This document shows, one piece after another, positions 1-6,266 of a DNA stretch of 64,000 nt (position 1 is its first letter; every line of letters begins with the position of its first letter). Source of the DNA: Nocardioides sp. REDSEA-S33_B3 (GTDB lineage: Bacteria; Actinomycetota; Actinomycetes; Propionibacteriales; Nocardioidaceae); contig LUPK01000038.1 in assembly GCA_001627335.1 (NCBI GenBank), positions 1 through 64,000 on the forward strand. Direction: 5' to 3'. The notes beneath the pieces were generated by a model. The model was not told where the DNA came from. It worked only from the letters and a program-made list of their open reading frames with translations, and made no database searches. The translations under genes and the position numbers were made by a program.

Positions 1-264
1 GCATCAGCCAACGTCATGGTCATCAGGTGTCTCGCTTCTCGCCCCGTGCAGGGAAGGAACTCAGAAGTGGTGTCTCACCTCAGCCTGACGCACAGGGAGG
101 GCGCGATGCGCATTGCCATCCTGCTCGTGCTGGACCGTCATGTAGTCAAGAGCGACATGAGCCTGCCACCCCTAAGTTCGGTTACCCCAAACTGAAGCGC
201 GCACTTCTGCCGCGACGCGTGCGCGAATCTGCCGGCGAGGGGGACAGATCTCTACGCTGAACTC
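1..264. other. No convincing gene in the left edge
   Basis: No reading frame here has both actinobacterial codon bias and a recognisable protein. A 77-codon frame at 27-260 has mixed third positions and an Arg/Pro-rich product typical of a chance frame. The last 12 bases look like a leaderless promoter for the next gene. Confidence 0.5.
253..258 (+). promoter_or_regulatory. Leaderless -10 box (TACGCT) of the HEAT-repeat gene
   Basis: TACGCT is followed by 6 nt and then ATG at 265. The same TANNNT plus 6-7 nt plus start geometry recurs in this window. It supports ATG 265 as the ancestral start, and hence a frameshift downstream of it. Confidence 0.4.
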
Positions 265-340
265 ATGGCCGGATCATCGTGGGGCAAGACGCCGCGAGAG
301 CGTCGAGCAGGAGTGTGCTCGCCGTGGCAAGGATGAGGTT

Positions 341-706
341 GTGGCGGGATGCGTCGAGCTCCTCACGAAAGGCGACGCGGACCCGGATCTGATCCTGGCC
401 CTGGGTGGTCCGCCGGCGCGCTGGGTCGTCACCGGCGAGCCGCCAGGCCCTCCCTACTGGCTGCGTGTCTGGGCGTTGCGAGGTCTGCTGTGGGCCTGGG
501 ATGCCAGGGCACGCTCAGCAGTGGACACGGCACTTCAGGACGAGGCTTGGCGGGTGCGGGAGATGGCGCTTCGAGTCGTGGCCCGTCACCGGCTCGAAGA
601 CGCCGTGACGACAGCAGCCGACCTCCAAGACGACCCGAACGCCCGAGTGCGAGCCGCTGCGTCACGGGCTCTGGCCCGGCTCGCCAGCGACAAGGACAGC
701 GCCTGA
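341..706 (+). CDS. HEAT-repeat protein, probably frameshifted at its 5' end
   Basis: The 121-residue frame ends in two helical HEAT-like repeats (WRVREMALRVVARH and RVRAAASRALARLA), after a domain containing GPPYWLRVWALRGLLWAWD. Such proteins are protein-binding scaffolds of unknown partner. The open frame begins at GTG 341, but family-like sequence continues upstream without a start: frame 2 encodes VEQECARRGKDEVV from 302. A matching N-terminus (MAGSSWGKTPRER) lies in frame 1 from ATG 265. Restoring 2 bp at the GAGCGTCGAG stretch near 300 would fuse the two into about 146 residues. This is therefore either a recent pseudogene or a sequencing error. A start at 341 would remove the conserved front part. 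Confidence 0.65.
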   Translation: MAGCVELLTKGDADPDLILALGGPPARWVVTGEPPGPPYWLRVWALRGLLWAWDARARSAVDTALQDEAWRVREMALRVVARHRLEDAVTTAADLQDDPNARVRAAASRALARLASDKDSA

Positions 707-813
707 GAGTCATCGGAAAGACGTCCGCACATGCCGCGATCCGCGCACTTTGACGGGCGCCTCCTCGAGGGCGGGTTTCGTCAAAGTAGCCCGCATGGAG
801 CTCGCCAATCTCC

Positions 814-843
814 CTGCATCTCGACAGAAATGTCGAGATGCAG
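814..843. repeat. Perfect hairpin with 13-bp arms and a GAAA loop
   Basis: Arms at 814-826 and 831-843 are exact reverse complements around GAAA, a GNRA-type tetraloop. There is no T-run on either side. A second inverted repeat (CTTGACA, 6 nt, TGTCAAG) follows at 849-868. The pair lies between the HEAT gene and the HAD gene and could be an operator, a processed RNA hairpin or a terminator. Confidence 0.6.
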
Positions 844-936
844 CGAATCTTGACAACTCGCTGTCAAGGTCAAGATCTACTCAGCGAATAGACATTCGGG
901 GGCGTACGGTGTCGCGGCTCTTGCAGCGGCCCCGAT

Positions 937-942
937 TAGGAT
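937..942 (+). promoter_or_regulatory. Leaderless -10 box (TAGGAT) of the HAD gene
   Basis: TAGGAT is followed by 7 nt and GTG 950, with no Shine-Dalgarno sequence. Transcription would start at or next to the start codon. Confidence 0.45.
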
Positions 943-949
943 CCGGTTC

Positions 950-1597
950 GTGCCGCTGATCGCGCTCGACCTGGATGGGACGCTCGTCGACCAGGCGTCG
1001 GCAGCGCGCGCGTGGGCTCATGGCTTCGTCCGTGGGTGGGGCCTTCCCACCCACGAGGTCGATGTGGTCACAACTGCCCTCACCGAGCGTCGCCCCAAGG
1101 ACGAGGTCTTCGCTCGACTGGTCGACCGTCTCAGGCTCCCGACGAGCGCAGACGAGGTGTGGCGTCGTTACCGCACCGAGATGCCGTCCCTGGTCACGGT
1201 CAATGACGACGACCGTCGCGCGCTCGCCGAGTTTCGCGCTGCGGGTTGGACGCTCGGCATCGTCACGAACGGCATGGCCGACAATCAAGAGGGCAAGATT
1301 CGTCGCACCGGCCTCGACACTTTGGTCGACGGCTGGGTGATCTCGGACGTGGTCGGCGCCCGCAAGCCATCCCCCGTGATCTTCCATGCCCTTGCTGAGC
1401 GGCTCGGCTGTCCACTCGATGGATGGATGATCGGCGACAGTCTCGAATTCGATGTCGCGGGAGGCGCAGGGGTCGGGTTACAGACCGCCTGGATCGACAG
1501 CGACGGATCCGACGCGACATCCTTTCAGCCAGATCTCGTCGTGCAGTCGGTCGCAGCAGCGGCGGTAACGATCCTCGACAGCTCGGCCATGGCGTAG
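950..1597 (+). CDS. HAD-superfamily hydrolase (phosphatase-like)
   Basis: This 215-residue protein has all four HAD motifs. DLDGTLVD near residue 7 provides the nucleophilic Asp and the acid/base Asp. IVTNG near 104 is motif II. The Lys in GARKPSP near 143 is motif III. GDSLEFD near 162 is the Mg2+-binding motif IV. A helical cap follows motif I, as in the phosphoglycolate phosphatase/haloacid dehalogenase type. The Asp two residues after the nucleophile favours phosphatase over dehalogenase activity. The substrate cannot be inferred. It is monocistronic, with a GTG start fixed by the -10 box at 937. Codon bias is weaker than in most of the window. Confidence 0.85.
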   Translation: MPLIALDLDGTLVDQASAARAWAHGFVRGWGLPTHEVDVVTTALTERRPKDEVFARLVDRLRLPTSADEVWRRYRTEMPSLVTVNDDDRRALAEFRAAGWTLGIVTNGMADNQEGKIRRTGLDTLVDGWVISDVVGARKPSPVIFHALAERLGCPLDGWMIGDSLEFDVAGGAGVGLQTAWIDSDGSDATSFQPDLVVQSVAAAAVTILDSSAMA

Positions 1598-1620
1598 CCG
1601 CCCACTGCGTCGCCCTGCGC

Positions 1621-1659
1621 AGCGACGAGGCGGCGCGACGAGGCGGCGCGACGAGGCGG
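1621..1659 (+). repeat. Three tandem copies of a 13-bp GACGAGGCG-containing unit
   Basis: GACGAGGCG occurs at 1624, 1637 and 1650 with exact 13-bp period. GACGAGGCGGC reappears as loop plus 3' arm of the trp attenuator hairpin at 1786-1796. The array lies just upstream of the trpL promoter. Confidence 0.6.
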
Positions 1660-1694
1660 AGCCCTGGGGCATGCGGAGAGCGCGTGAGCGTGTG

Positions 1695-1700
1695 TAACCT
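1695..1700 (+). promoter_or_regulatory. Leaderless -10 box (TAACCT) of the trp leader
   Basis: TAACCT ends 6 nt before the GTG at 1707, so the trp leader transcript probably begins at the leader-peptide start codon. No clear -35 element is visible. Confidence 0.4.
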
Positions 1701-1706
1701 GTCGCT

Positions 1707-1742
1707 GTGCTTTGTCGATCGATCAACTGGTGGCGCGCCTAG
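1707..1742 (+). CDS. trpL: trp leader peptide, 11 residues with tandem Trp codons
   Basis: GTG 1707 to TAG 1742 encodes MLCRSINWWRA, with Trp codons TGG TGG at 1728-1733. An in-frame TAA at 1695 limits the start to GTG 1707. It precedes trpD by about 100 nt with an alternative hairpin pair between them. Translation would sense charged tRNA-Trp: stalling on Trp8-Trp9 leaves segment 1745-1751 free, while termination at TAG covers it. The start lacks a Shine-Dalgarno sequence and is probably leaderless. Small size and regulatory layout, not homology, support this gene. Confidence 0.7.
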   Translation: MLCRSINWWRA

Positions 1743-1744
1743 CC

Positions 1745-1796
1745 AGGCGGCGTCCATCTGATCGATTCTTCTATCCGGCCGCCTCGACGAGGCGGC
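1745..1796 (+). promoter_or_regulatory. trp transcription attenuator (antiterminator/terminator)
   Basis: The terminator stem pairs GCCGCCTCG (1778-1786) with CGAGGCGGC (1788-1796), followed by T-containing TGTTGCGTT. AGGCGGC (1745-1751) is complementary to GCCGCCT (1778-1784) and would form the competing antiterminator. CGCCT (1736-1740) can pair with AGGCG (1745-1749) as the 1:2 hairpin overlapping the leader stop codon. Low charged tRNA-Trp should favour the antiterminator and trpD expression. The pairings are read directly from sequence; the mechanism is inferred from the classical trp attenuator. Confidence 0.65.
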
Positions 1797-1847
1797 TGTT
1801 GCGTTATGCGAGTTGTGTCGACGAGGCCCACACCCTGAGGGCAGTCA

Positions 1848-2924
1848 ATGTCGTTCACCGCACCGCACCGCGATCTCCCCGAACCCCCCAGCTCGAAAAC
1901 GTGGCCTGATCTCCTGGACGAACTCCTCCGAGGCGGTCACCTCAATCGTGCGACGGCGCACTGGGCTATGCGGCAGATCGTGCGGGGCGAGGCCACCACA
2001 ACGCAGATCGCCGGGTTCCTGGTCGCCCTCCGCGCCAAGGGTGAGACCTCCGCGGAGATCAGCGGGTTCGTCGATGCTCTCCATGAGTCGGCGACGCCAG
2101 TGATTATCCCCGGACCGACAGTCGATATCGCAGGCACCGGGGGCGACGGCACCGGCGCGATCAACGTCTCAACGATGGCCGCGATCGTCGCCGCCGCGGC
2201 GGGCATCACCGTGGTAAAGCACGGTGGCCGGTCGGCCTCATCGCTGACCTCTGGCGCCGCGGACCTGGCCGAGCATCTCGGCATCCCGCTGGACAACAAG
2301 GCCAGCGCCGCCGCCGCGACAGCCGCGAAAGCCGGCGTCACGTTCCTCTACGCGCCGCACTTCAACGCCGGACTGCGGCACGCCATCGACGCTCGTCGCG
2401 GCCTTGGGATCCCGACCGTCTTCAACACCCTCGGTCCACTGATCAATCCGGCTAACCCGCACCACAGAGTGATCGGAGCAGCCGACCGCCGGGTAGCACC
2501 ACTCATTGCAGAGGTGCTGGCGGACCGCGGGCACACCGGCCTGGTCGTACGTGGCCGGGACGGCCTCGACAAGCTCACCACGACAGAGAGCTCCGACGTG
2601 TGGGTCGTACGAGAAGGCCGGGTCTCGACAGTCGAGCTGGATCCAGCCGTGCTCAGCCTCCCTCGTGCAGAGTCAGGTGACATTCGAGGCGGGACCGCGG
2701 CCGAGAACGCGGCGGCATTTCACGCGCTCCTTGCGGGTCAAATGGGTCCGATCCGTGACGTGGTTCTCCTCAACGCCGCCGCTGTCGCGGCGACAATGAC
2801 GTTGACCGAAGACCCGCTGGAGGAACAGATCGGCGAGGCTCTGCCTCGATGCGCAGAGGCCATCGACAGCGGAGCCGCGGGTAAGGTCCTCCGCTGTCTG
2901 GTCGCACGGGGCGACGACTGGTAG
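1848..2924 (+). CDS. trpD: Anthranilate phosphoribosyltransferase (second step of Trp synthesis)
   Basis: The 358-residue product fits the family: an N-terminal helical domain, the PRPP loop GTGGDGTGAINVS at 96-108, and FNTLGPLINP at 192-201. The enzyme joins anthranilate to PRPP. ATG 1848 has GAGGG 7 nt upstream. It stands alone behind the trp attenuator. Two family-conserved positions deviate: the usual KHGNR is KHGGR (124-128), losing an Asn of the anthranilate pocket, and the usual Asp-Glu metal pair is Asp241-Lys242 in GLDKLTT. Codon choice is less GC-extreme than downstream genes. It may be the only TrpD or a divergent paralogue; trpE, trpG and trpC are not in the window. Confidence 0.85.
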   Translation: MSFTAPHRDLPEPPSSKTWPDLLDELLRGGHLNRATAHWAMRQIVRGEATTTQIAGFLVALRAKGETSAEISGFVDALHESATPVIIPGPTVDIAGTGGDGTGAINVSTMAAIVAAAAGITVVKHGGRSASSLTSGAADLAEHLGIPLDNKASAAAATAAKAGVTFLYAPHFNAGLRHAIDARRGLGIPTVFNTLGPLINPANPHHRVIGAADRRVAPLIAEVLADRGHTGLVVRGRDGLDKLTTTESSDVWVVREGRVSTVELDPAVLSLPRAESGDIRGGTAAENAAAFHALLAGQMGPIRDVVLLNAAAVAATMTLTEDPLEEQIGEALPRCAEAIDSGAAGKVLRCLVARGDDW

Positions 2925-3171
2925 GGGACCGGTCGACCGTAGCCGCGATCCGCGTGAACCGACATTGACAGGCCCCGCCAAGCGCGACCGTTTGGTCAGA
3001 GTTCCCCGCGGGGAGCTCGGCCATCTCCGTTACATCTCGACACCGCCGCTGTCGTAGCCGGACGGACCGAACCGGTGTGTCGAGCGGTCCGATGAGTCGG
3101 AGGCGGCGGCCTGCAGCACGTTTCGGTCCGTCCGGCTCCGGGCCGCTCGACCACGGGGCACACTGCGAGGT
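2925..3171. repeat. Intergenic palindromes: 2999-3018 and long inverted repeat 3056-3071/3122-3137
   Basis: GAGTTCCCCG at 2999 and CGGGGAGCTC ending at 3018 form a 10-bp stem with one mismatch, a plausible trpD terminator. Further on, 16-bp arms at 3056-3071 and 3122-3137 are exact reverse complements separated by 50 nt. They end 34 nt before the next start codon, so the following mRNA leader could fold into a long stem. Confidence 0.5.
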
Positions 3172-3576
3172 GTGAGCCGCTTCGGACGCCGCGACGAGCC
3201 CGGTACGCCGCTGGGCGCGGGTCGCCTGGCCGACATCTCCGACCCCGCCGTACCCGACTCGCTGCGGCGCATCGTCCGCCCGGCCGGTGGCCGGGCGCAC
3301 CCGCACGTGCTGCGGATGGCCGGGGACCACCCCCGGGTGCTGGTGGCGGCACGTCCGGAGGCACTGGTCCACGTCAGCTTCGCCGACCAGGGCGACGTCG
3401 AGGCCTCCGCGGCCTGGTCGGTGGCGTTCGTGCCATGGGCGCAGGTCGAGGAGATCCGGGTGACCGGGGTGTCGATCACCTTCCGCTGGCCCGGGCACAG
3501 CGTCTCGGTGGACATGACCACCCACGAGGAGGCGCTGCAGACGGGGCTGTTCTTCCTCGACGTGCCCCACGGGTGA
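3172..3576 (+). CDS. Uncharacterised 134-residue protein
   Basis: I do not recognise the family. The protein is soluble, with no signal peptide or membrane segment. Its second half (ALVHVSFADQG, WAQVEEIRVTG, ITFRWPG) reads as alternating beta strands and could be a small beta-sandwich. Strong G/C third positions support coding. GTG 3172 was chosen because conserved-looking sequence begins at once and no upstream start is available. The gene is isolated between trpD and a convergent minus-strand operon. Confidence 0.6.
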   Translation: MSRFGRRDEPGTPLGAGRLADISDPAVPDSLRRIVRPAGGRAHPHVLRMAGDHPRVLVAARPEALVHVSFADQGDVEASAAWSVAFVPWAQVEEIRVTGVSITFRWPGHSVSVDMTTHEEALQTGLFFLDVPHG

Positions 3577-3594
3577 GCAGCGGTGCTGGGGGAC

Positions 3595-3645
3595 GTGGTC
3601 TCGACGCCCGCTCCTCGCTGGCGCTCGTCGCTGCTCGACCACCGG
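3595..3645. repeat. Dispersed palindromic element, family A
   Basis: The element runs from GTGGTCTCGACGCCC to CTGCTCGACCACCGG. Its reverse complement matches 21588-21641 at all but a few positions, and related copies occur at 58114-58221 and, in diverged form, at 8325-8410. Here it separates two convergent genes and may also act as a terminator. Confidence 0.7.
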
Positions 3646-3661
3646 AGGGCGGCCGTCGCCC

Positions 3662-4540
3662 TCAGCGCCGGTGCTTGCGCCCGTGCTTGAGCACGGTCAC
3701 CAGCCCGCCGAGCAGGTGCTGGGTGAACCGGTCGTCGTAGTACATCGTGATCTCGTGGCCCAGCGCGGTGTACCAGGACCGCCCGCGCCCCACGCGGTGC
3801 GTCCAGGCCATCGGGTGGTCGCCCATGACCCCGCTGACGCCGGGGTAGGTGGGGAACGGGTTCGCCGGGCCGGTCGGCAGGTTCGAGGTGTTGGGGTCCT
3901 GCAGGTAGCTCGACTCGTCGATCGACAGCAGCACCCGTGACCGGCCGCGGACGCTGGAGGTGAAGGAGTAGAACTCCTCGATCGGGATCAGCCACTGCTC
4001 GGGCAGGTGCCGGGTCGAGCGGTGCGTGGCGCTCTCGGTCACCATCAGGCCCGGCTGCTCCAGCGGGTGCGCCAGGAACCGGCCGCCGGCCAGCAGCCGG
4101 GTGTAGAAGGGGTTGGAGTACTCCGTGTCCGCCGCCGAGTGGACCCCGGCCCAGCCGCCGCCGCGGCGTACGAACCTCTTCAGGGCGGTGCGCTGGGCGC
4201 CCTCGAGCACGTCGCCGGTGGTGTTGACGAAGGCGATCGCGTCGTAGCCGTCGAGGCCGCGGTGGGTGAAGGCGGTCGGGTCCTCGGTCGCGTTCACGTC
4301 GAAGCCGTGGGCGGTGCCGAGGTCGGCGATCGTGGCCACCGCCGTCTCGATCGACATGTGCCGGAAGCCGGTCGTCCTGCTGAAGACCAGCAGCCGCGGC
4401 CGCTCGATCCCCGCCCAGGTCGGGGGCGCCGAGAGCACCAGGGGCGCGACCGGCGCCGCCAGGGCGGCACCCAGCAGGGCGCGCCGGCTCGGGGCGGGGA
4501 CGGTGCCGGAGGAGCCGGAGCAGGTGGAGTCGGTGCACAT
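3662..4540 (-). CDS. Exported ThuA-domain protein
   Basis: This 292-residue protein has an N-terminal export signal (PSRRALLGAALAAPVAPLVLSA, residues about 17-38, Tat-like twin Arg). A ThuA fold follows: LLVFSRTTGFRH near 50, GYDAIAFVNTTG near 98, GGGWAGVHSAADTEY near 126 and the GHE segment near 262. ThuA proteins are class-I-glutaminase-like folds linked to disaccharide and 3-keto-sugar use. It is the last gene of a three-gene operon 19 bp after the GMC oxidoreductase, with AGGAG 6 nt before ATG. It may act on the product of that oxidase outside the membrane; the reaction is not established. Confidence 0.8.
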   Translation of the reverse strand: MCTDSTCSGSSGTVPAPSRRALLGAALAAPVAPLVLSAPPTWAGIERPRLLVFSRTTGFRHMSIETAVATIADLGTAHGFDVNATEDPTAFTHRGLDGYDAIAFVNTTGDVLEGAQRTALKRFVRRGGGWAGVHSAADTEYSNPFYTRLLAGGRFLAHPLEQPGLMVTESATHRSTRHLPEQWLIPIEEFYSFTSSVRGRSRVLLSIDESSYLQDPNTSNLPTGPANPFPTYPGVSGVMGDHPMAWTHRVGRGRSWYTALGHEITMYYDDRFTQHLLGGLVTVLKHGRKHRR

Positions 4541-4559
4541 GGGGGTCTCCTGGAGCGGC

Positions 4560-6266
4560 TCAGACGGCCGAGCCGTCGGCGATGCCGCGGGCGATGCGGA
4601 TCGAGTTGGCCATGATCGTCAGCGTCGGGTTGAAGCCGGGGAAGGTCGGGAACGTCGAGGCGTCGGCGACGAAGACGTTGTCGACGTCGTGCAGTCGCCC
4701 CGAGGAGGCGCACACCGAGGTGCGCGGGTCCTCGCCCATCCGCGCGGTGCCGGCCAGGTGCGCGGTGTAGGTGATGCCGGAGTTGATCAACGGGAACGGC
4801 AGCACGATCGCGCCGATCGACTCCGGGGTCGCCTGGTGGGCGGCGAGCATCTGCGCGCCGAGGTAGGTCGCGGCCGCCTGCTCGTGCCGGTGCGGGGAGT
4901 AGGTGATCCGCGCCGCCGGGTTGCCGAGGAAGTCGGTGACGTCGGGGTCGAGGTCGACCCGGTTCTCGGCCTGCGGGAGGTCCTGGTGGACCAGCTGCGA
5001 GCCGGCCACCCCGGCGTGCGGCCCGACCCGCATGGCGGCCTTGTGGGCCGCCCCGTAGCCGGCGAAGCCCGCCATCAGCTGCGCACCGTTGATCGGCGGA
5101 CCGCCCGAGCCGAGCTGGATGATGCCGCCGGTCAGGTACGGCACCCCGAGCGCGCTCACCTCCGGCCCGGTGAACGGGCCCACGAGGTCGTCGATCTGCA
5201 GCGTCGTCGACTGCGCCCGCAGCGGGTGCACCGTGAAGGGGAAGAAGGCGGCGGCGATCGTGAAGTTGTGGAACATCATGTTCCGGCCGACCTGGTCCGA
5301 ACGGTTGCCCAGCCCGGTCGGGTGGGCACGGTTCGCCGACATCAGCAGCAGCCGCGCGGTGTTGATCGGGCTGCCGGCCAGCACCACGGTCGAGGCGGGG
5401 ATGCGGTGCACCTTCCCCCGGACGTCGCGGTAGCGCACCGCCCGCGCCCGACGGCCGTTGCGCGTGGTCTCCACCCGGTCCACGAACGCCCGCTCGACCA
5501 CCCGCACCCGACCGGTCCGCATCGCGGGGTTGAGGAACGACACCAGCGCGTCGCCCCGGGCGTTGATCGGGCAGCCGAAGCCCGAGCACATCCCGCAGGA
5601 GTTGCACGCCGGACGGCCCTTGCGGTGCTCGGAGTTCACCGCCGCCGGGTAGGGGTAGGGCTCCATCCCGACCAGGCGCGCCCCCTGGGCGAGCAGGCCG
5701 GCGGCGTACCCCGTCGGGTTGGGCGGCATCGGGAAGTCGCGCCGACGCGGGGACTGCTCGAGGGTGCGCGCCGGCATCGCTGCGCGGTCGCCCTGGACGC
5801 CGACCTGGCGCTCGACGAGGTCGTAGTACGGCGCGAGGTCGTCGTAGCCGATCGGCCAGTCCGCCACCTGGGCGCCGTCGATCGGCCCCCTGTCGGAGAG
5901 CAGCGAGAAGTCCTGCTTCCAGAAGCGCGGCGTCTTGGCGTTGTAGTGCAGGCTCGTGCCGCCCACGGCCGCGCCGAGCTGACCGAGCGCGCCCTGCGCC
6001 GAGCGCGCGACCCCGGAGGAGGCCTCGGCCTGGGTGCGCGTCGTGTAGGGCTCGAGGTCGCCGTCGGGGAACCCGAAGCCGCGGTAGCCCTTCACCTCGT
6101 CCGAGCCGTACTCCGTGCCGAGCCGACCGCTCGACCGCTTGCCCAGCCCCGGGCGGAGGTTGCGTCCGCGCTCCAGGACCGTCACGTCCCACCCCTGGCG
6201 AGCCAGCTCCCACGCGGCCGCGGACCCGGCCGCGCCGGAGCCGACGACCACCGCCTCCCGGCTCAC
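4560..6266 (-). CDS. GMC-family flavoprotein oxidoreductase (sugar/alcohol dehydrogenase subunit)
   Basis: The protein has 568 residues. The FAD dinucleotide fold is VVVGSGAAGSAAAWELA (6-22). The GMC active-site pair is His503 in YTAHLAGTARMG and Asn546 in FPGFNPTLT. Four cysteines at 221, 224, 227 and 232 (CNSCGMC then GC) resemble the Fe-S-binding insert of membrane-bound FAD sugar dehydrogenases. It starts GTG 6266, overlapping the upstream subunit-3 gene by 4 bp, and lacks its own signal, so it may be exported piggyback on the Tat-signal partner. Likely role: periplasmic oxidation of a sugar or glycoside hydroxyl. A steroid or alcohol substrate is possible. Confidence 0.85.
   Translation of the reverse strand: MSREAVVVGSGAAGSAAAWELARQGWDVTVLERGRNLRPGLGKRSSGRLGTEYGSDEVKGYRGFGFPDGDLEPYTTRTQAEASSGVARSAQGALGQLGAAVGGTSLHYNAKTPRFWKQDFSLLSDRGPIDGAQVADWPIGYDDLAPYYDLVERQVGVQGDRAAMPARTLEQSPRRRDFPMPPNPTGYAAGLLAQGARLVGMEPYPYPAAVNSEHRKGRPACNSCGMCSGFGCPINARGDALVSFLNPAMRTGRVRVVERAFVDRVETTRNGRRARAVRYRDVRGKVHRIPASTVVLAGSPINTARLLLMSANRAHPTGLGNRSDQVGRNMMFHNFTIAAAFFPFTVHPLRAQSTTLQIDDLVGPFTGPEVSALGVPYLTGGIIQLGSGGPPINGAQLMAGFAGYGAAHKAAMRVGPHAGVAGSQLVHQDLPQAENRVDLDPDVTDFLGNPAARITYSPHRHEQAAATYLGAQMLAAHQATPESIGAIVLPFPLINSGITYTAHLAGTARMGEDPRTSVCASSGRLHDVDNVFVADASTFPTFPGFNPTLTIMANSIRIARGIADGSAV

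Follow-up and report, generated by a model that had tools for sequence, protein, structure and literature searches.

The closest described counterparts of the element reported here are trp leaders in Streptomyces, Corynebacterium, and Sinorhizobium. In the parts of the Streptomyces lividans TK24 study considered here (PMC8079986), trpL1 (peptide MFAHSTRNWWWTAHPAAH, with three Trp codons) precedes trpE and trpL2 (with one) precedes trpS; as at our locus, each is a short, leaderless ORF with Trp codons, followed by hairpins and a monocistronic gene. The targets there are trpE and trpS, unlike the trpD found here, and the main text of that paper does not contain the name trpD. The attenuators predicted by Seliverstov et al. 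in 2005, for trp operons and trpS2, include examples in Corynebacterium and Streptomyces that share with our locus a double or triple UGG and a G+C-rich complementary triple common to antiterminator and terminator (PMC1262725, in part). Their terminators run into poly-U tracts, unlike the weak U-tract described below, and the sections of that paper considered here mention neither a stand-alone trpD nor a leaderless start. In Sinorhizobium meliloti, according to the portions of PMC7298713 considered, the trpLE(G) transcript likewise begins at the leader ATG and so is leaderless, but trpL controls trpE(G), not trpD, and the released RNA and peptide also act in trans. A preliminary description of our locus had called a leaderless leader peptide an unusual design; given trpL1, trpL2, and S. 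meliloti trpL, as presented in those parts of PMC8079986 and PMC7298713, that view does not stand.

The window, a 64,000-nucleotide stretch of Nocardioides DNA, carries at positions 1695 to 1798 what we take, with a probability of roughly 0.85, to be a ribosome-mediated trp attenuator whose leader peptide is leaderless. The switch would very probably turn on a spare trpD when tryptophan is low. Its parts are as follows.

1695-1700, + strand: -10-like box TAACCT, read from the letters
1707-1742, + strand: leader ORF GTG...TAG, VLCRSINWWRA, 11 codons, predicted leaderless
1717-1767, + strand: 1:2 hairpin; an outer helix (1717-1725/1759-1767) encloses an inner stem at the stop codon
1728-1733, + strand: TGG TGG, tandem sensor codons, invariant in 32/32 aligned leaders
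1745-1751, + strand: segment 2, AGGCGGC, 5′ half of the antiterminator, complementary to GCCGCCT at 1778-1784
1776-1798, + strand: 3:4 terminator stem-loop, 10 bp, 1776-1785 pairing with 1789-1798
1778-1784, + strand: segment 3, GCCGCCT, 3′ half of the antiterminator
1837-1841, + strand: GAGGG, putative Shine-Dalgarno (SD)-like site of trpD
1848-2924, + strand: second trpD, anthranilate phosphoribosyltransferase paralogue, with K242 for the Mg-binding Glu and G127 for Asn

The leader and its conservation among relatives

The letters named in the preliminary description are all present: TAACCT, a GTG (1707) 6 nt after it, a peptide with tandem Trp codons ending at TAG (1740-1742), and complementarity between 1745-1751 and 1778-1784. 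Both of its hairpins appear in the predicted fold, and both turn out longer than proposed. The 1:2 hairpin over the stop codon gains the outer helix, and the terminator stem, given as 9 bp at 1778-1796 (GCCGCCTCGACGAGGCGGC), has 10 bp; it is followed by the weak U-tract TTGCGTT. The predicted fold of the RNA from 1707 to 1805 has an energy of -46.8 kcal/mol, compared to -34.7 ± 3.5 in 200 shuffles (z = -3.5), and none of the 200 was as stable. When window positions 1-6000 were searched with the Rfam models (4,227, presumably including the proteobacterial trp leader family), four unrelated weak matches were returned, with E values up to 5 and no overlap with 1695-1850. A tandem repeat, GACGAGGCGGCGC, lies directly upstream of the promoter (window 1624-1658) and resembles the 3′ arm of the terminator; its copy number differs between the window and its relatives L033/L210 and L211.

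The preliminary description proposed looking for covariation and conserved TGG TGG codons in relatives. We aligned 32 leaders, that of the window and 31 from relatives (30 from a genus inferred to be Kribbella and one from another family), giving 31 distinct rows. Both Trp codons proved invariant, and one antiterminator pair was exchanged between A-U and G-C; the peptide and the stems are thus conserved, and the attenuator reading, with a leaderless start and antiterminator and terminator segments, is borne out by the relatives' leaders. Typical leader peptides among them are VITRLSSWWPVD and MFQRAGMWWAVD. A covariance model built from 31 leaders with the window left out (R2) finds window 1707-1806 with 48.0 bits (E = 3.8e-8 in 64 kb); its next best match in the 64 kb has 17.3 bits and lies on the opposite strand, overlapping the same positions. 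On the strength of this leave-window-out match, a chance origin of the attenuator was rejected. In two other Nocardioides genomes, G724 and G714, the -10-like box reads TAATCT instead of TAACCT, and leader and stems do not differ; being identical, the three Nocardioides leaders add almost no independent support.

In the antiterminator, every readable cell of the 31 distinct rows is paired; columns 41 and 83 hold an A-U pair in 23 of these rows and a G-C pair in the other 8. In the terminator, one C-G pair becomes U-A in three rows and another pair is U-G, C-G, or U-A. From these changes in antiterminator and terminator, segment 2 varies together with segment 3. The inner 1:2 stem is conserved, with U-A, C-G, and U-G pairs. 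The observed covariation score was reached by none of 500 shuffles, for the structure and for the antiterminator alike, a control that is weakened by kinship among the rows. Two-sided changes are few (one antiterminator pair and two pairs in the remaining structure) because the stems are so conserved; the counts of two-sided pairs and of pair types did not rise above the shuffles, and a version of the structure slid by +2 had four two-sided pairs, compared to two in the real one. The outer 1:2 helix of the window, of nine pairs, sits in other columns than that of the relatives, so that this helix is conserved as a feature rather than pair by pair.

The predicted switch and rival modes of control

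Termination and a response to tryptophan would follow for the window leader from its sequence, its conservation, the covariation, and the predicted switch. We imagine that transcription starts at or beside 1707 and that ribosomes initiate on the 5′-terminal GUG. A shortage of charged tRNA-Trp would stall the ribosome at the UGG codons (1728-1733), where it would cover the transcript to about 1740-1743 and keep the 1:2 hairpin open; segment 2 (1745-1751) would then be free to pair with segment 3 (1778-1784) ahead of the synthesis of segment 4, and with that pairing in place the terminator could not form and trpD would be transcribed. When tryptophan is plentiful, a ribosome at UAG would cover segment 2, the 3:4 stem would form, and transcription would stop near 1800. 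If the leader is not translated at all, the 1:2 hairpin would form and have the same effect, termination.

The ribosome is assumed to cover 15 nt past the first base of the P-site codon. With that part barred from pairing and the RNA folded to the terminator loop only, a stall at either Trp codon gave an antiterminator probability above 0.5 in all 32 leaders, compared to 0/32 for free RNA or for a ribosome at the stop codon, zeros that in the latter state arise partly by construction. When the stall position was moved codon by codon, the median probability was about 1 within one codon of the first Trp codon (offsets -1 to +1), dropped to 0.94 at -2 and 0.58 at +2, and was near 0 at offsets of three or more codons in either direction. 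The window leader is less sharp in this respect (0.97 at -3 and 0.25 to 0.27 at -4 to -6). Full-length equilibrium folding keeps the terminator in 30/32 leaders despite the stall, so that the switch is absent there; of the two exceptions, one (L025) switches, and the other (L015) gives up the terminator but gains no antiterminator. Given that the terminator is kept at equilibrium, the switch must be kinetic.

In 28 of the 32 trpD leaders, the 10 nt that follow the stem have a longest T run of 1 or 2. Such a weak U-tract would suit control mainly at the level of trpD translation, with an inefficient 3:4 terminator and a downstream helix hiding the SD site of trpD; on a Trp stall, segment 4 would pair with the CCTCG arm of this helix and free the ribosome site. 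Across 31 rows the helix CCTCG...CGAGG over the SD site (5:6) is 98.1% paired, as is the alternative pairing of segment 4 with the CCTCG arm (4:5), but two-sided changes occur in neither, and because segment 4 resembles segment 6, the two pairings are not independent evidence. Moreover, the window (row L001) has no CCTC arm, and in full-length folding the median predicted accessibility of the SD site is nearly constant between states. We therefore regard control of this kind as unlikely for the window. The helix between terminator and trpD start, exchangeable with the 4:5 pairing, is seen in L114-L122 and other Kribbella loci. Because the window is without the CCTC arm and two-sided changes are absent, a second layer is suggested for Kribbella only, where an SD-hiding helix possibly provides extra translational control, outside the system of the window.

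A TAnnnT motif, which occurs at 0.04% of positions in these loci, stands before the leader start codon in 32/32 leaders, with a gap of 6 nt in 10 and 7 nt in 22. The start codon used for each leader was the one aligning with the other leaders, a choice made for the first 22 before the upstream letters were known and for ten later leaders afterwards; 28/32 leaders, the window not among them, have more than one possible in-frame start. No -35 box was obvious by eye in nine upstream regions. This arrangement points to a transcription start in the window at about 1707 and to a leaderless leader. It could instead be that the attenuator is real but its leader is translated from an SD site and a start further upstream, and AAGG or AGG inside many Kribbella -10 boxes can indeed be read as a weak SD. 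Yet an SD-like tetramer (GGAG, GAGG, or AGGA) is found in only three of the 32 leaders and not in that of the window, in contrast to the 6- or 7-nt gap in all of them, and the variants TATCTT, TACTGT, TATCGT, TATGTT, and TAACCT keep TAnnnT while losing any SD. An SD-led leader is thus improbable, and we rejected it.

Rho-dependent uORF systems are known in mycobacteria, and the poor U-tract would also fit termination by Rho, with the translated leader shielding or exposing a Rho site and the 3:4 stem secondary; Rho alone would not demand a 10-bp stem that is nearly invariant and varies in step with segment 2 and internally, and we give this account very little credence. Equally remote is the idea that an attenuator real in Kribbella is a mere carried-over relic in the lineage of the window, one that draws on the apparently recent movement of its segment between Nocardioides species and on identical leaders that leave selection within the genus invisible, since the window leader, although much of its sequence has changed after the split from the Kribbella copies (trpD 51 to 58% identical), retains the two Trp codons, the distance from TAnnnT to the start, and six of six antiterminator pairs, and has a nine-pair outer 1:2 helix that is particular to it.

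The gene downstream and the wider family of leaders

The attenuator, as we read it, controls an extra trpD, so that tryptophan starvation would likely bring an extra anthranilate phosphoribosyltransferase, or a re-tooled relative of one. The preliminary description had this gene as stand-alone. No other trp gene adjoins it, consistent with that; the genome has, however, another trpD besides this one, and a HAD-family hydrolase gene lies with it in a common segment. The predicted protein passes the TrpD model TIGR01245 (307.4 bits; cut-off, 199.05). The ordinary trpD of the same genome (G000:C2:70315-71340) is 52% identical to it, scores 359 bits with the same model, and lacks a tandem-Trp leader. 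A search of 341 genomes of the family turned up a 99% identical copy of the second trpD in two more, G724 and G714. The next relatives, 51 to 59% identical, are the second trpDs of genus g3 (the inferred Kribbella) and of G108, which belongs to another family; in 38 genomes of the Kribbella genus, 32 gave a full-length match, two gave fragments, and four gave none.

Compared to the Mycobacterium tuberculosis enzyme (PDB 1zvw and others; 254 bits), the window protein has the same GTGGD and KHGxR motifs, and it has K242 and G127 where the former has E252 and N138. Proteins of this clade read DGLDK[LV], in contrast to DGLDEL elsewhere. Lys replaces Glu in 36 of 37 attenuated rows (one genome is represented twice, and G100 is the sole exception) and in none of the 82 other copies read, a set with 4 further copies unread and with 23 re-fetched copies of attenuated genes left out. 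The replaced residue corresponds by alignment to E252, which ligates an Mg essential for catalysis, as stated in the part of PMC9835598 considered here. The same part gives Gly for the yeast enzyme at the position of Asn138 (in KHGN; G127 in the window). Some housekeeping copies also have Gly or Ser there, and with Gly found in yeast and in these copies, the change from Asn to Gly says little by itself. In the tree, 19 attenuated Lys-type rows group together with 100/98 support, apart from housekeeping copies that include eight of the Kribbella genus itself. From its sequence, the paralogue may be an anthranilate phosphoribosyltransferase or a re-tooled relative, and its predicted control by tryptophan speaks for a function in the Trp pathway.

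The leader goes with this type of trpD. A short ORF with TGG TGG lies upstream in 36/36 intact Lys-type copies examined (three from Nocardioides, 32 from the Kribbella genus, and that of G108), and nine housekeeping trpD copies scanned showed no tandem-Trp leader. In a scan of 80 loci, nearly all of them housekeeping trpD, no locus outside the Nocardioides and Kribbella members of this clade showed the leader, except for a stray ORF in L095 (MRSTAARRCWW, 366 nt upstream). Two damaged Lys-type copies (G103:C112:9611-10315 and G093:C1:162952-163792, both from another family of the order) gave no significant attenuator match; in both, decay of trpD goes along with absence of the leader. Outside the clade, G100 carries an attenuated trpD of a separate lineage (L200, G100:C1:944477-945595) that keeps the Glu, reads KHGGR, and has its own leaderless leader, MRTFLGWWAAD. 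Its branch is long and its placement unsure; it is possible that the attenuator was recruited independently there.

With an E value of 0.1 as the limit, a model built from all 32 leaders, window included (R1), matched 54 of 145 relatives; with 0.01 as the limit, it matched 16 of 396 genomes across the phylum. Both counts include the genome of the window itself, and some weak matches probably arose by chance. Six fetched phylum matches from five genomes, probably of that kind, were left out (L161, L162, L163, L165, L166, and L168); none of L162, L163, L165, and L166 combined a convincing leader with a trp gene downstream. Of 35 matches read that do not precede trpD, 30 precede trpS and 5 precede TrpE-like genes. 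The trpS leaders, found in the Kribbella genus, Nocardioides, G108, and genomes of family f6, comprise 29 assigned by pattern and L177, with four of the 30 (L177 included) checked with TIGR00233. All five TrpE-like genes match Pfam Chorismate_bind, a family that does not alone separate TrpE from related chorismate enzymes, and NCBIfam at an E value of 1e-40 gave them no name. TAnnnT stands 5 to 8 nt before a usable start in 24 of the 35; the other 11 all precede trpS and come from genus g1. Within the genome of the window, the trpD leader is the only strong R1 match (others have E values of 0.66 or more). Its trpS gave no significant model match (best, 12.9 bits), and its assembly, 88% complete, had no Chorismate_bind gene and no match to the trpE model TIGR00564.

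A run of T5 or T6 follows the terminator in 9 of 11 Kribbella trpS leaders read (L147, L149, L151, L169-L174, L185, and L186), compared to T runs of at most 3 in nearly all trpD leaders. This contrast suggests differing termination strength within one regulon.

A shared segment in Nocardioides

The trpD of the window lies in a segment with these features.

770-3042, + strand: segment common to the window and two other Nocardioides genomes, with HAD hydrolase gene, attenuator, and trpD
818-839, + strand: dyad ATCTCGACA-GAAA-TGTCGAGAT, left boundary
950-1597, + strand: HAD-family hydrolase gene, inside the shared segment
3034-3042, + strand: half-site ATCTCGACA, right boundary
733-881 and 2942-3042: ~110-bp repeats in the window
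65170, 67372, 73281, 79772, and 83271 of G724:C19: ~110-bp repeats
4319, 6542, and 10919 of G714:C13: ~110-bp repeats

The segment is 97.3% identical to that of G724 over 2,301 nt and, from position 747, 95.9% identical to that of G714 over 2,352 nt; outside it, there were only short repeat-like matches in the 20 kb and 15 kb compared. The tree path between the window and G724 is 0.006 for the second trpD, compared to about 0.43 for the housekeeping trpDs. Given a 2.3-kb segment 96 to 97% identical in three genomes with unrelated surroundings, the unit of trpD, attenuator, and HAD hydrolase gene is probably mobile.

In addition, repeats of ~110 bp, all in one orientation, separate gene segments of 2 to 7 kb and mark the ends of the trpD segment. 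Each contains a dyad resembling CTTTGACG..CGTCAAAG and, as its core, ATCTCGACA-N(0-7)-TGTCGAGAT; further ATCTCGACA-N-TGTCGAGAT dyads in G724 likewise lie in one orientation, 2 to 7 kb apart. As judged from the letters, the array looks integron-like or Xer-module-like, a candidate cassette array in Nocardioides. A tyrosine recombinase in G714 scored 47 bits, compared to the integron-integrase cut-off of 265; a search for its relatives found none in the other four stretches searched and so brought up no recombinase common to the arrays. The shared segment matched nothing among plasmid or phage records, and the trpD matched nothing in viral contigs.

Among the titles listed in a search of the open-access literature, none dealt with attenuation of a stand-alone trpD, or of a second one, in Actinobacteria. 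The mechanism is a known one, with leaderless trp leaders at trpE and trpS, while the target trpD, the change in the enzyme, and the mobile setting appear to be new. As a tentative overall picture, one can envision a re-tooled TrpD, with Lys for the Mg ligand, that is inducible by Trp starvation and stands under a leaderless Trp attenuator wherever it is intact, with an SD-hiding layer in Kribbella and, in Nocardioides, a mobile cassette that includes the HAD hydrolase gene and has ATCTCGACA/TGTCGAGAT dyads at its ends.

If this is true, it would be a portable amino acid biosynthesis gene bearing its own Trp sensor. A second trpD would join trpE and trpS as targets of leaderless Trp attenuation, and the covariance model finds such leaders in several families of Actinobacteria. 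The tie between a regulatory element and a paralogue with a changed Mg ligand raises the question of whether the enzyme can work with Lys in place of Glu. Finally, a small and probably mobile unit of gene and sensor suggests that attenuators may travel with the genes they control.
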